Part shown: positions 9,426-37,663 of the stretch, in pieces
Layout of the letters: every line of letters starts with the position of its first letter
Numbering within the stretch: position 1 is the stretch's first letter
Origin: Ligilactobacillus ceti DSM 22408
GTDB taxonomy: Bacteria > Bacillota > Bacilli > Lactobacillales > Lactobacillaceae
Direction of reading: 5' to 3'
DNA: 64,000 bases
Assembly: GCF_000423245.1 (NCBI RefSeq)
Contig: NZ_KE383993.1
Coordinates: forward strand, 124,001 to 188,000
Translations under genes and position numbers: made by a program
Notes under the pieces: model-generated
What the model was told of the DNA's origin: nothing
The model's database searches: none
Seen by the model: only the letters and a program-made list of their open reading frames with translations

Positions 9426-11120
9426 ATGGATTATAAACAAAAAGTAGCACAAGCCATCGTAAAAGCTGTTGATGGACAATTAACAGAAGAAGAAGTTTTA
9501 GTGAAAATTGAAGTTCCTAAAACAATGAACTTAGGGGACTATGCTTTTCCAGCATTCGTTTTAGCGAAAGTTTTACGTAAAGCCCCACAAATGATTGCAA
9601 CAGAATTAGTTGAAAAAATCGATCCAACAGGTTTTGAAAAAGTTGAAGCTGTTGGTCCATATGTTAACTTCTTTTTAGATAAAGCAATGTTCAGTCAAGA
9701 TGTTTTACATGAAGTTTTAACAGAACAAGCAACTTATGGTAACCAAGATTTAGGTCATGGCGGTAATGTACCAATTGATATGTCATCACCTAACATTGCT
9801 AAACCAATGTCAATGGGACACTTACGTTCAACAGTAATTGGTAACTCAATTGCTAACTTATTGAAAAAAGCTAACTATAACCCAATTAAAATTAACTATT
9901 TAGGCGATTGGGGTACACAATTTGGTAAGTTAATTATGGCTTATAAATTATGGGGTAGTGAAGAAGAAGTTAAAGCTGATCCAATTAATAACTTATTAAA
10001 ATACTATGTACGTTTCCACAAAGAAGACGTAGAACATCCTGAATTAGATGATCAAGCACGTGAATGGTTCAAGAAATTAGAAGATGGCGATGAAGAAGCA
10101 ATTTTCTTATGGACATGGTTTAGAAATGAATCATTACAATTCTTTATGAAGATTTATGATAAATTAGGTGTTGAATTTGACTCCTTTAATGGTGAAGCTT
10201 TCTATAACGATAAAATGGATGAAATCGTAGAATTATTAGAAGATCGTGATTTATTACAAGAAAGCCAAGGTGCTTCAATTGTTGATCTAGAAAGTTATAA
10301 CTTGAACCCAGCTTTAATTAAAAAATCCGATGGTGCTACATTATATATCACACGTGATTTAGCAGCAGCTTTATATCGTCACCGCACATATGATTTTGCT
10401 CAATCACTATATGTTGTTGGTAACGAACAAACAAATCACTTTAAACAAGTAAAAGCTGTCTTAAAAGAAATGGGTTATGACTGGTCTGATGATATCCATC
10501 ATGTACCATTTGGTTTGATTACATCTGGTGGTAAAAAATTATCCACACGTTCTGGTCGTGTAATCTTATTAGAAGATGTTTTAAATGATGCGGTTGATTT
10601 AGCTGAAAAACAAATTGAAGAAAAGAATCCAACATTACCAAATAAAGAACAAGTTGCTGAAGAAGTTGGTGTTGGTGCTGTTATTTTCCACGATTTGAAA
10701 AATGAACGTTTAAATAACTTTGATTTTGATTTAGAAGAAGTTGTTCGTTTTGAAGGTGAAACAGGTCCTTACGTTCAATATGCACATGCTCGTGCAATGA
10801 GTATTTTACGTAAAGCTGGCGTGACAGAAATTGATCCAAATGCAGCTTATGAATTAACAGATCCAAATGCTTGGGAAGCAATTAGCTTATTAGGTAATTT
10901 CCCACAAGTAATTAAACGTGCTGTTCGTGAATACGAACCATCTGTTGTAGCTAAATATGCTATTCAATTAGCTAAAGCTTTCAACAAATATTATGCACAT
11001 TCTAAGATTTTAGCTGATGATGATCAAAAAGCAGCTCGTCTTGCTTTAGTTGCTAGTGTTGCGATTGTCTTAAAAGAATCATTACGTCTTTTAGGTGTAG
11101 CAGCTCCAAATGAAATGTAA
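9426..11120 (+). CDS. argS: Arginyl-tRNA synthetase
   Basis: Class I synthetase of 564 residues that charges tRNA-Arg. The N-terminal additional domain (about 1-110) is followed by the catalytic core with the HIGH-type motif [16 protein letters not shown]; as usual for ArgRS the KMSKS loop is degenerate ([10 protein letters not shown]). The C-terminal alpha-helical anticodon-binding domain contains [12 protein letters not shown]-like [13 protein letters not shown]. It sits directly downstream of its T-box leader and ends at a strong terminator, so it is a single-gene unit. Confidence 0.97.
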
Positions 11121-11139
11121 AAAGAAATTTTAAAAAATT

Positions 11140-11178
11140 AAAAACTAGCTTAATCTAAGTGATTAGGCTAGTTTTTTT
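11140..11178 (+). terminator. Intrinsic terminator after argS
   Basis: A 16-bp stem (11140-11155 with 11161-11176, one G-U), a 5-nt loop and a T run. Confidence 0.9.
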
Positions 11179-11203
11179 GCGTATTTATGTATGAAACGGT
11201 CAT

Positions 11204-11232
11204 TTGCGTGGGAAAATATCCCGCGTTATAGT
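11204..11232 (+). promoter_or_regulatory. Promoter with embedded operator-like dyad, Crp/Fnr gene
   Basis: TTGCGT (11204-11209), a 17-bp spacer and TATAGT (11227-11232). The spacer and the -35 carry an imperfect dyad, GCGTGGGA-aaata-TCCCGCGT (11206-11226), in an otherwise AT-rich gap. A protein bound there would block RNA polymerase. Confidence 0.55.
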
Positions 11233-11273
11233 GGAAGTGTAGAACTAATTTAACTAGGGGGATTTAGTTTGAC

Positions 11274-11951
11274 ATGCAAGGAGAAATTAAGATTCAAGGT
11301 CTAACTATTAAAGAAAATGAATTAATAGCAGCTGGTGGGACACGGTGCTATTATGAAAAATCAGAAGAGATTTATCTTTCTGAAAGTAAAGCTTTATATT
11401 ATATTGAGGATGGTATTTTAGGCGTGAAAGTTTTACAAAAAGATTATGATTATATGTATTCTTTTTTAGACAAAACTAAATTTTGGCCATTAGATCGATT
11501 ACAAGGATTTAGTATGCCGGATAATTTATGTTTTAAAGCTCTAACAAGTACTTCAATTATTAAGATTCCTTATTTAACGTATCAAATTTTATTATTAGAA
11601 CATGGAACTTTAGCTAAGTTGTTGTTACAAAGTGCGTTGGATGAAAGAAGAATTCATGATAATTTTAAATATGCATGCTCATGTAAAAGTGCTCAAGATC
11701 GTGTGCTATTAGTGATATTTTTAATGGCTTATCATTATGGACAGAAAAATCAAAAGGAAGATTATTTATTACCAGAATTTTTGACACAACAAATATTGGC
11801 TAATTTAGCACAAACGACACCGATTACAGTTTCTAAAGTTGTTCAAAATTTACAAAATGACGCCAAGATTACGTTTAATCGCAAAGTTAAAATTGTGAAA
11901 AAATCATTTATGAGTAATCCGCAAATTCAAGAGTGTCTATTGTATGCATAA
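11274..11951 (+). CDS. Crp/Fnr-superfamily transcriptional regulator
   Basis: A 225-residue protein. The N-terminal ~115 residues look like a cupin-type sensor domain, ending in a dimerisation helix (about 117-145). The C-terminal winged helix is recognisable from SAQDRVLLVIFLMAYHYG, then LPEFLTQQILANLAQTTPITVSKVVQNLQND, which matches the R-x-x-x-F-L...T-x-x-x-L-A...T-V-S-K/R-x-x-x-x-L pattern of Fnr-like HTH domains. A CSCK segment is present but no Fnr-type four-cysteine cluster. Genes of this type next to argR are reminiscent of ArcR, but the target here is unknown. Confidence 0.72.
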   Translation: MQGEIKIQGLTIKENELIAAGGTRCYYEKSEEIYLSESKALYYIEDGILGVKVLQKDYDYMYSFLDKTKFWPLDRLQGFSMPDNLCFKALTSTSIIKIPYLTYQILLLEHGTLAKLLLQSALDERRIHDNFKYACSCKSAQDRVLLVIFLMAYHYGQKNQKEDYLLPEFLTQQILANLAQTTPITVSKVVQNLQNDAKITFNRKVKIVKKSFMSNPQIQECLLYA

Positions 11952-11975
11952 ATATACGCTTTTCTGTGATATAAT
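11945..11975 (+). promoter_or_regulatory. argR promoter with ARG-box-like site
   Basis: TGCATAAATATACG (11945-11958) matches 10 of 14 positions of the ARG box TGAATAATTATTCA and is itself a near palindrome. It covers the position of the -35 for the extended -10 TGA-TATAAT (-10 at 11970-11975). This arrangement fits autorepression by ArgR. Confidence 0.5.
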
Positions 11976-11990
11976 GGGATAAAAATTAGC

Positions 11991-12035
11991 AGAAAGGATA
12001 ATATCGCTGTTTTTAACCGATATTAATAACTGGCA
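11991..12035 (+). promoter_or_regulatory. argR leader: distant Shine-Dalgarno and hairpin before the ATG
   Basis: The only Shine-Dalgarno-like sequence, AGAAAGG (11991-11997), lies 38 nt upstream of the ATG at 12036. Between them an 8-bp hairpin (11999-12006 with 12018-12025, 11-nt loop) could fold out and bring AAAGG to about 11 nt from the start. No in-frame start lies upstream because a TAA occurs at 12024-12026. Confidence 0.5.
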
Positions 12036-12509
12036 ATGAAAAAAGAAGAGCGTCAAAATAAGATTGAACAATTAATTAATAAAGAGATAATTGCAACACA
12101 AGAAGAATTGCTTTTAGCACTTCAAAAAGATGGGATTAAAACAACGCAAGCTACTTTATCACGTGATATTCGTGAGATGCAAATTGTTAAAGAAGCAGAT
12201 GGTAATGGTAATATTCGTTATACTTTATTTCAAAAGAATGACAATACCCAAGAAGAATATTTACAACAAAATGTTTATGATACATTAATGAAAATTACGC
12301 AAGTTGAATTTATGAATATTATACAAACAACACCACGGAATGCGAATGCTTTAGCAGCTATTATTGATGAAATGTCCTTAGATGGAATTGTAGGGACTTT
12401 AGCTGGATATGATACTGTGGTAGTTATTAGTGATTCGAAAGAGTCGGCCAAAAATATTAATCAGTTATTTTTAAGTTATGCTGATCGTGATTTGTTAGTC
12501 CGTAAATAG
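12036..12509 (+). CDS. argR: Arginine repressor ArgR
   Basis: A 157-residue hexameric repressor. The N-terminal winged helix contains TTQATLSRDIREMQIVK, the ArgR recognition helix signature; the C-terminal oligomerisation and arginine-binding domain contains GIVGTLAGYDTVVVISDS. The length is standard. There is no Shine-Dalgarno at normal distance (see the leader entry). An ARG-box-like site overlaps its promoter, suggesting autoregulation, and candidate ARG boxes precede the amino-acid ABC transporter at 46.3 kb. No arginine biosynthesis genes are in the window. Confidence 0.95.
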   Translation: MKKEERQNKIEQLINKEIIATQEELLLALQKDGIKTTQATLSRDIREMQIVKEADGNGNIRYTLFQKNDNTQEEYLQQNVYDTLMKITQVEFMNIIQTTPRNANALAAIIDEMSLDGIVGTLAGYDTVVVISDSKESAKNINQLFLSYADRDLLVRK

Positions 12510-12561
12510 TTAAGTTAATTTAAAAATTTTAAAGAAGAAAGTCGCTTTTGAAGGGTTATGC

Positions 12562-12567
12562 TAAAAT
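12562..12567 (+). promoter_or_regulatory. Extended -10 upstream of the PBP gene
   Basis: TATGC-TAAAAT gives an extended -10, 31 bp upstream of the ATG. No good -35 was found. Confidence 0.4.
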
Positions 12568-12597
12568 TAAATTAAAACTTTTAAAAGAGGATAGATT

Positions 12598-14709
12598 ATG
12601 AAAAATAATACTTTTTTCGAACGTGTTTTAGAAAAGATAAAACATTTTTGGCAAAAGTTTTGGAATTGGTTAAAAATTAAATGGCGTCGTTATCAAATTA
12701 ATCGCTGGATTATAGTTCTATTATTGAGTGCTTTTTTAGTGATTAGTATTTATTTAGTCGCATTAGCCAAAACAACGGACGTAAAAGGGTTACGTTCACA
12801 ATTAAAACAAGCCACGATTATTTATGATCAAAAAGATCAAAAAGCAGGCTATTTATATTCCCAAAAAGGAACTTGGGTTAATCTGGATCAGATTTCACCG
12901 AATGTTGAAAATGCTGTTTTATCAGTTGAAGATCGTAATTTTTATCATGAACATGGTTTTTCTGTGAAAGGTATTACACGGGCGGGCTTGAGTTATGTGA
13001 AAAATAAATTGTTACGTCGTAATCAAATTAGTGGTGGGGGGAGTACTTTAACGCAACAATTAGTTAAAAATGCCTTTCTGTCTCAGGAACAAACTTTTAC
13101 CCGTAAAGCGAAAGAAATTTTTATATCAGTTCAAGTCGAGAATGTTTATTCTAAAAAAGATATTTTAGCGATGTATTTGAATAATGCTTATTTCGGGAAT
13201 GGTGTTTGGGGTGTAGAAGATGCCTCTGAAAAATATTTTGGTAAACACGCTTCACAATTAACCGTTCCAGAAGCTGCTACTTTAGCCGGGATGCTAAAAG
13301 GACCAAATGTTTATAATCCGATCGATCATCCTAAAGCAGCTCTTGCGCGACGAAATGTTGTCTTAAAGACTATGGTCGCTAATGATAAAATAACTGAAAA
13401 ACAAAAAGAACAATATCAAAAGGCAACTATGAACTTGAAAGATGATTATAAATATCATTCAGGTTATCGTTATCCATATTATTTTGATGCAGTTATTGCT
13501 GAAGCGATGCATAAGTATGATTTAACAGAAACACAAATCATGAACCAAGGGTATAAAATTTATACAAGTTTAAATCAAAGTTATCAAGAAAGTATGCAAC
13601 AAACATTTGATAATAATAGTTTATTCCCAGCTACAGAGGCAGGTAAAAAACCGTTACAAGCAGCTTCGATTGCCATCAATCCGAAAAATGGTGGTGTGCA
13701 AGCTCTAGTCGGTGGTCGTGAAGATACACATGTATTCCGTGGCTATAATCGGGCGACTCAGTTGATTCGATCACCTGGATCAACTATTAAACCGTTAGCT
13801 GTATATATGCCGGCCTTACAATCGGGATATCATTATGATTCAATGTTAGAAGATGAATATCAAGCTTATGGAACTAATAAATATCAACCACATAATTGGA
13901 ATGATGTTTATGTTGGTAAGTTACCGATGTATCAAGCTTTAGCTCAAAGTAAAAATACATCTGCTGTTTGGCTTTTGAATAAAATTGGTGTTAAAAAAGG
14001 TTATGATTCAGTTGAAAAATTTGGGATTAATTTGGATAAATCAGATAATAATTTAAGTTTAGCTTTAGGTGGTTTGAAAAAGGGTGTGTCACCATATCAA
14101 ATGGCCGCAGCATACACAGCATTTGCGAATGAAGGTGTGCAATATCAGCCTCATTTAATTACGAAAATTGTGGATGCGACTGGCAAAGTAATTGTTGATA
14201 ATACTGATCCAAAAAGTAAAAAGATTATGACTAAAAAAGTTGCTGATGAAATGACTAGCATGATGTTAGACGTCTATCGACCTCATGGAACTGGTTATGG
14301 TGCTCGTCCTTATGGTTACACAATTGCTGGTAAAACAGGGACAACACAATTAATTATTAATAAACAACGGATGGATAAAGAACATTGGTATATTGCTTAT
14401 ACACCAGATGTTGTTGTTGCTAGTTGGGTTGGATATGATTCGAATTCGCGGGCTGTTAATAATTTAAGCGTTGGTTCTAATTTATTTAGAACGGAAATGG
14501 AAGGGATACTCTCTAAAACACCACTAACTAAATTTACAGTAAAACCAGCGGATGTCATTTTACAAGAAAAACAAGCCGATCAAGCTGATTTTTGGGATAG
14601 TTTGAAAAAATCAAGTGAGCAAGTTGGTTCTGAAGTTTATGATAAAGTGAAAGATTTTTGGGATAAAAGCAAAAAAACAGTTCAAGATTTCATTTTGAAA
14701 AATCGTTAA
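12598..14709 (+). CDS. Class A penicillin-binding protein (PBP1A/2A type)
   Basis: Bifunctional peptidoglycan synthase of 703 residues, membrane anchored. It has a basic cytoplasmic tail (1-37) and one TM helix (about 38-60). The GT51 glycosyltransferase domain follows, with catalytic E111 in SVEDRNFYHEHGF and the motif GGGSTLTQQLVKN. The transpeptidase domain has S395-T-I-K398 (nucleophile motif SxxK), S451-K-N453 (SxN) and K579-T-G-T (KTG). After the transpeptidase there is a short Lys/Asp-rich tail. It polymerises lipid II and cross-links it. Ribosome binding site AAGAGG; terminator downstream. Confidence 0.95.
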   Translation: MKNNTFFERVLEKIKHFWQKFWNWLKIKWRRYQINRWIIVLLLSAFLVISIYLVALAKTTDVKGLRSQLKQATIIYDQKDQKAGYLYSQKGTWVNLDQISPNVENAVLSVEDRNFYHEHGFSVKGITRAGLSYVKNKLLRRNQISGGGSTLTQQLVKNAFLSQEQTFTRKAKEIFISVQVENVYSKKDILAMYLNNAYFGNGVWGVEDASEKYFGKHASQLTVPEAATLAGMLKGPNVYNPIDHPKAALARRNVVLKTMVANDKITEKQKEQYQKATMNLKDDYKYHSGYRYPYYFDAVIAEAMHKYDLTETQIMNQGYKIYTSLNQSYQESMQQTFDNNSLFPATEAGKKPLQAASIAINPKNGGVQALVGGREDTHVFRGYNRATQLIRSPGSTIKPLAVYMPALQSGYHYDSMLEDEYQAYGTNKYQPHNWNDVYVGKLPMYQALAQSKNTSAVWLLNKIGVKKGYDSVEKFGINLDKSDNNLSLALGGLKKGVSPYQMAAAYTAFANEGVQYQPHLITKIVDATGKVIVDNTDPKSKKIMTKKVADEMTSMMLDVYRPHGTGYGARPYGYTIAGKTGTTQLIINKQRMDKEHWYIAYTPDVVVASWVGYDSNSRAVNNLSVGSNLFRTEMEGILSKTPLTKFTVKPADVILQEKQADQADFWDSLKKSSEQVGSEVYDKVKDFWDKSKKTVQDFILKNR

Positions 14710-37147: not shown

Positions 37148-37663
37148 ATAGCAGTTGATAAAATGGTTAACGAAGGAATTCGTGCTCGTGAAGTTCGTTT
37201 GATTTCAAATGATGGTTCTCAGCTTGGTGTTAAGTCTAAGCAAGAAGCATTAAGCTTAGCTGAACAAGTTAATTTAGATTTGGTACTAGTGGCACCAAAA
37301 GCAAAACCACCAGTTGCCAAAATCATGGATTATGGGAAGTATCGTTTTGAGTTGCAGAAGAAACAACGTGAAGCTCGCAAGAATCAAAAAGTAGCTAACG
37401 TTAAAGAAGTACGGTTAAGTCCAACAATCGACACGAATGACTTTAACACTAAAGTTAAAAATGCATTAAGATTTATCGCTAAAGGTGATAAAGTAAAAGT
37501 TTCGATTCGTTTCAAAGGCCGTGCGATAACTCATAAGGAAATCGGTCGAGATGTTCTCGAAAGATTTGCACAAGCAACTGACGAAGTTGCCGTAGTTGAA
37601 TCAAAACCAAAAATGGATGGGCGTAGCATGTTCTTAATGCTCGCACCTAAGGTTGATAAATAA
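37148..37663 (+). CDS. infC: Translation initiation factor IF-3, ATA start
   Basis: A 171-residue IF-3 controlling start-codon selection. A near-perfect Shine-Dalgarno, GGAGGTG (37134-37140), is followed 7 nt later by ATA (37148-37150), reading [12 protein letters not shown]. The first ATG (37163) is 22 nt from the Shine-Dalgarno and would trim the family N-terminus. Both IF-3 domains are present: [20 protein letters not shown], then the C-terminal [18 protein letters not shown] non-AUG start is the classical basis of IF-3 autoregulation, with AUU in E. coli. Confidence 0.92.

Follow-up and report, generated by a model that had tools for sequence, protein, structure and literature searches.

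A candidate split ribosome-binding site in the argR leader of Ligilactobacillus ceti

How do ribosomes find the start of argR in Ligilactobacillus ceti, where no Shine-Dalgarno (SD) sequence lies next to the ATG? A sequence-only reading of this locus had pointed to the motif AGAAAGG, 38 nt upstream, and to an 8-bp hairpin that would bring it to about 11 nt from the start codon, a folded spacer of the kind known from phage T4 gene 38 that could make translation of argR depend on RNA folding.

The argR gene and the layout of its leader

The window, by which we mean the whole 64-kb stretch of DNA analysed, belongs to contig 1 of a genome of 1.39 Mb whose stated completeness is 99.3%. It carries, in this order, argS (9426-11120), a gene for a Crp-like regulator (11274-11951, with a Pfam match just below cut-off), argR (12036-12509) and a gene for a class A penicillin-binding protein (12598-14709). 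The predicted product of 12036-12509 has the features of an ArgR/AhrC arginine repressor, with both N- and C-terminal Arg_repressor domains, and scores 133.6 bits against TIGR01529 (cut-off 130.45). Its SRD motif is standard, and GTLAGYDT occurs in 36 of the matched loci. The end branch of the protein measures 0.28, compared with a median of 0.37, in a tree that resolves poorly, 9 of its 18 inner branches being open. Given that this branch is not long and that the family motifs are kept, argR is probably used. A decaying argR is not favoured for the same reasons, the motifs being as in relatives, though its expression might be decaying. Plasmid records gave merely three distant partial argR matches.

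The argR frame is closed upstream by in-frame TAA codons at 12024 and 12027, so that the earlier exclusion of upstream starts stands for everything beyond them but not for an in-frame CTG at 12030. As nearly all ArgR alignments of relatives begin at residue 1 of the protein started at ATG 12036, this codon fits as the start of argR, and a misplaced start was rejected. The elements of the locus, all on the forward strand, are as follows.

11965..11975, + strand: probable extended -10 promoter element TGTGATATAAT, recognized by eye
11991..11998, + strand: distal SD AGAAAGGA, computed pairing -10.1 kcal/mol
11999..12006, + strand: 5' arm of the 8-bp stem, TAATATCG, directly adjoining AGAAAGGA
12007..12017, + strand: 11-nt loop of the stem, CTGTTTTTAAC, read from the sequence
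12018..12025, + strand: 3' arm of the 8-bp stem, CGATATTA, pairing perfectly with the arm at 11999-12006
12036..12509, + strand: argR, arginine repressor, 157 aa (PF01316, 3.8e-22; PF02863, 1.1e-19)

Read directly from the letters, AGAAAGG occupies 11991-11997 and is extended by A11998 to AGAAAGGA. The 38 nt previously counted between AGAAAGG and the ATG at 12036 agree with these positions, and the shortening to 11 nt by an 8-bp hairpin was reproduced (A11998 and 12026-12035 remain); counted from AGAAAGGA, the distance is 37 nt, or 10 nt with the stem closed. The lack of a near SD was likewise confirmed, since pairing with the anti-SD at -20 to -4 amounts to 0.0 kcal/mol. All pairing energies refer to a generic anti-SD rather than to one read from this organism; it was used throughout because searches of the assembly gave no match to 16S rRNA, nor any to its 3'-end pattern. 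A missing 16S rRNA in a nearly complete assembly is a usual gap of short-read assemblies.

The promoter element TGTGATATAAT is missing from a strict promoter scan, which demands a -35 hexamer; judging from its position, the argR transcript would probably start at about 11982. Just upstream of this -10 element, TATGCATAAATATACG at 11943-11958 is by eye a possible ARG-box-like site that could serve autoregulation, and TATTAAT at 12021-12027, also seen by eye, was the basis for considering a leaderless argR transcript. No known RNA family was detected in the leader: the three matches obtained in 11100-12700 (E up to 5) fall outside it and score far below their gathering scores.

Known parallels are found in phage T4, where RNA structure cuts the distance between SD and AUG from 22 to 5 nt in gene 38 and from 27 to 11 nt in gene 25, and where changes that weaken the structure lower translation (PMC3014915). 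Like these genes, argR has an SD that is too distant and a predicted RNA structure in between, which would bring 37 nt down to 10. The first mark of a split region of this type, a distal site of -10.1 kcal/mol set 37 nt apart from a near site of 0.0 kcal/mol, is found in the leader; the second, a stem restoring a workable distance between SD and ATG, is predicted in transcripts from 11982 or 11985. The cases differ in that the T4 examples are phage genes with mutational evidence, plus DMS probing for gene 25, whereas argR is a bacterial chromosomal regulator in one species for which the arrangement is a prediction. Escherichia coli thrS (PMC3936740) also has structured RNA between two parts of the ribosome landing site; there, the binding site is preceded by structured domains in the 5' UTR, for which a standby-site model is given, while in argR the structure would lie between SD and AUG.

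Shine-Dalgarno sequences of relatives and of the same genome

The sequence-only reading had named conservation in related argR leaders as one of its checks, and this check came out against it. The argR leaders of 127 loci comprise 99 distinct ones, including that of L. ceti, and a normally placed SD was found in all 98 others (-5.9 to -13.3 kcal/mol), so the arrangement is not conserved. Five additional leaders of relatives also have one (-7.4 to -12.7 kcal/mol, one of them extrapolated from query residue 6; a sixth added leader, L144, repeats L046 of the 98), as does the gene for a second ArgR, a paralogue, in the L. ceti genome itself (-10.4 kcal/mol). Among 25 genomes of the same genus, 18 have an ArgR match and 7 have none. 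The split arrangement occurs in 0 of these 18, the nearest ArgR being only 59% identical in protein; the best-match leaders of all 18 were read, although three of the proteins (G002, G006 and G014) are 32-41% identical and may be of the other ArgR type. In six of the genomes, the argR leaders are identical to those of Ligilactobacillus animalis, murinus, apodemi, agilis, ruminis and salitolerans. This absence refutes conservation across species, not use in L. ceti. Since the arrangement of T4 gene 25 is itself confined to close T-even phages (PMC3014915), non-conservation alone does not exclude use.

The same genome offers a second comparison. In a sample of 321 kb, made up of the window and 13 other stretches, the best SDs of 278 ORFs (100 aa or longer) have their median at -9.4 kcal/mol, a background against which the missing near SD of argR speaks for a split site. 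argR ranks second weakest even if the best start may be taken from anywhere within the first third of each ORF; the -2.4 kcal/mol it receives there belongs to an internal ATG, its true start having 0.0, and below it stands only a 104-aa TTG ORF, probably no real gene. At the start used, eight ORFs, argR among them, are weaker than -5 kcal/mol. The other seven include infC, whose true start appears to be an upstream AUA, one ORF with masked bases and another that overlaps the end of an upstream ORF; the last four look in part like wrong starts or non-genes. For infC (37148-37663, + strand; TIGR00168, 223.1 bits), the start seems to be AUA 37148 rather than the first ATG, 37163, and at -13.6 kcal/mol the SD preceding this AUA is strong. 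Staphylococcus aureus infC is reported to have this rare start too (PMC13009471).

Rarity of the arrangement and folding of the leader

Dinucleotide shuffling of the 37-nt spacer gave a perfect stem of 8 bp or more, with a loop no longer than 15 nt, 31 times in 5000. Such stems were also present in 76 of 8675 37-mers taken from the genome and in 2 of 278 upstream regions; pairing as strong as that of AGAAAGGA was found in 52 of 2995 random 42-nt stretches. The joint arrangement was defined as an SD of -8.5 kcal/mol or stronger, a stem and 4-14 nt left to the start. It arose in 5 of 20,000 shuffled 60-nt leaders with 8-bp stems and in 13 of 20,000 with 7-bp stems, figures that are not clean p-values because the test was framed after the case had been seen. 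The 321-kb sample holds 11,389 ATGs, counting both strands, and only one of them qualified with 8 bp, that of argR, which is in the sample and passes. With 7-bp stems five did, the other four opening ORFs of just 1-20 codons. In 508 kb (one strand, 80 argR loci), there was a single qualifying ATG that opens a frame of 100 aa or more; it has a 7-bp stem and a weak near SD, and the letters upstream of it read, to us, as coding sequence. The combination of distal SD and stem is thus rarer than chance and looks more than accidental.

The hairpin itself is weak, worth -4.1 to -4.4 kcal/mol with six A-U pairs. In transcripts starting at 11982 or 11985, its pairs are nonetheless predicted with probabilities of 0.82-0.99 at 37 C and most bases of the SD are open, while within the AUG the unpaired probability is about 0.5-0.75 for the A and U and at least 0.9 for the G. 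Taken as a whole, the 76-nt region shows no folding advantage over its shuffles (z +0.74), 146 of 200 of which fold equally well or better. If the transcript begins at 11950, the predicted pair probabilities of the stem drop to 0.01-0.03.

We tentatively prefer the explanation that argR of L. ceti has a species-specific split ribosome-binding site working like those of T4 genes 38 and 25. The 30S subunit would bind AGAAAGGA, the adjoining hairpin would fold away 27 nt so that the ATG comes to lie about 10 nt from the SD, and initiation would take place at ATG 12036 without a near SD. Direct support comes from the sequence, with its absent near SD and its distal SD, from the computed stem and from the rarity of the combination. 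We infer that transcription of argR begins close to 11982, that the stem forms while the mRNA is bound to the ribosome and that argR is translated more because of it. Against it stand the absence of the arrangement from the 98 other distinct leaders and the further ones, the weakness of the stem, a fold no better than that of shuffles, the near-loss of the stem in the modelled 11950 transcript and the partial pairing predicted for the first two bases of the AUG. The original folded-spacer proposal is thus supported in part: its T4-like geometry holds and the combination is rare, but the relatives sampled do not share it. The arrangement is real, is statistically out of the ordinary and was, within the sample, confined to one species, and sequence does not yet separate the split-site reading, the most likely one, from initiation independent of an SD or from coupling to a leader ORF. 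Our search of the open-access literature, most subscription journals lying outside it, found no bacterial chromosomal gene with exactly such an arrangement. If the stem is needed, argR would represent a T4 gene 38/25-type split site in a bacterial chromosomal regulator, in a lineage without the near SD that its relatives carry. With its two arms, the leader also lends itself to a simple test of the amount of structure that ribosomes tolerate between SD and start codon.

Other readings of the leader

The strongest competitor, which we consider possible but rather doubtful, is SD-independent initiation, with the AUG recognised because the surrounding mRNA is unfolded and A-rich; on this view the inverted repeat is incidental, and AGAAAGGA is either a loose standby site or a relic. 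According to PMC3121790, unfolded starts can replace an SD, and the argR start is indeed open: over -10 to +10, its mean unpaired probability equals or exceeds that of 99.3% of 276 other ORFs, the corresponding values being 86% for the start codon alone and 89% for the folding energy from -20 to +20. An open start suits a split site equally, however, and only the split site explains the distal SD with its adjoining stem, which SD-independent initiation leaves as a coincidence (the 5 of 20,000 above). Moreover, ORFs without a near SD are very few in this genome and are mostly coupled genes, wrong starts or infC.

The gene content of L. ceti also suits SD-independent initiation, as low ArgR output may be tolerated where the usual targets are missing. 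No arcA or argG was found in the genome, carA gave just partial matches below cut-off, and no ornithine carbamoyltransferase scored above its cut-off: the single OTCace-domain carbamoyltransferase scores best as putrescine carbamoyltransferase and lies beside a carbamate kinase gene (L151). Since these genes were not found, the usual ArgR targets may be gone. The 7 of 25 same-genus genomes that do without an ArgR match fit in the same way. ArgR itself is kept in L. ceti despite the lack of arcA, argG or carA above cut-off. Across the 25 genomes, ArgR and arginine deiminase tend to be mutually exclusive: arcA is over cut-off in 6 of the 7 genomes without an ArgR match and in 4 of the 18 with one, counts that are not corrected for kinship.

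Translational coupling to a short leader ORF, a rival that the sequence-only reading had not considered, is unlikely; it would use the same distal SD at an ordinary distance.

12007..12039, + strand: possible 10-codon leader ORF from CTG, LFLTDINNWQ (first residue fMet if used), the frame being seen directly

Ribosomes would start at CTG 12007, which sits 8 nt after AGAAAGGA, end at the TGA that overlaps the argR ATG (ATGA) and re-initiate there. The SD distance and the stop overlap fit coupling, but the start codon is CTG; a leader ORF so placed arose in 278 of 5000 shuffles with any NTG and in 34 of 5000 with CTG. Five of six other weak-SD genes checked are placed as coupling requires: each overlaps the end of an ORF of 60 or more codons lying upstream, or is at most 24 nt away from that end. 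CUG, on the other hand, is a poor start codon. The apparent AUA start of infC in the same genome, with its strong SD, sets a precedent for rare starts, and in S. aureus a rare start behind a strong SD reaches 10-30% of AUG (PMC13009471). There, in ccpN, cvfC1 and infC, a strong SD directs a poor start codon and keeps output low, which is the mechanism the argR leader ORF would need; these codons are AUA or AUU and begin the gene itself, whereas the CUG of argR would begin a leader peptide. The ATGA overlap is expected anyway, because the second codon, Lys (AAA or AAG), is conserved in most relatives. No relative has the leader ORF, and its ten codons carry no testable coding signal.

It is improbable that the inverted repeat has no role in translation, being either a DNA operator or part of an inserted or misassembled stretch that parts an ordinary SD from the ATG. 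Its form, AATATCG-N11-CGATATT, is operator-like, and in one relative (L082) just 7 nt separate GAAAGGAT from the ATG, as in L. ceti minus most of the spacer. Nevertheless, the repeat is unique in the genome, both exactly and with up to 3 mismatches, and thus no regulon or repeat family is seen; a repeat element inserted between SD and ATG was set aside for want of a second copy in the genome or the 64-kb window. In L003, the closest relative judged by ArgR, TATAAT and ATG are likewise 60 nt apart, so an insertion need not be assumed. Its leader and that of L. ceti align no better than shuffles (119 of 1000 as good; 168 of 2000 for the 3' part), which supports neither an insertion nor an in-place history, and we do not claim that the SD was lost in place.

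The last reading starts from the scan between the Crp-like gene and argR, which found no terminator, so that read-through into argR is possible.

11956..11965, + strand: upstream arm of a competing 10-bp helix, predicted in transcript 11950-12100 and hence in read-through transcripts only; its partner is 12044-12053, argR codons 3-6

A promoter-dependent RNA switch, in which transcripts from the argR promoter would form the spacer hairpin and be translated from the distal SD, while read-through from the Crp-like gene would form the 10-bp helix (11956-11965/12044-12053), lose the hairpin and be translated poorly or start at CUG 12007, seems to us very improbable. Further upstream, after argS, a terminator-like inverted repeat with a T run is visible by eye at 11140-11178 (+ strand); it is absent from the terminator scan, which probably missed it through a stem mismatch.
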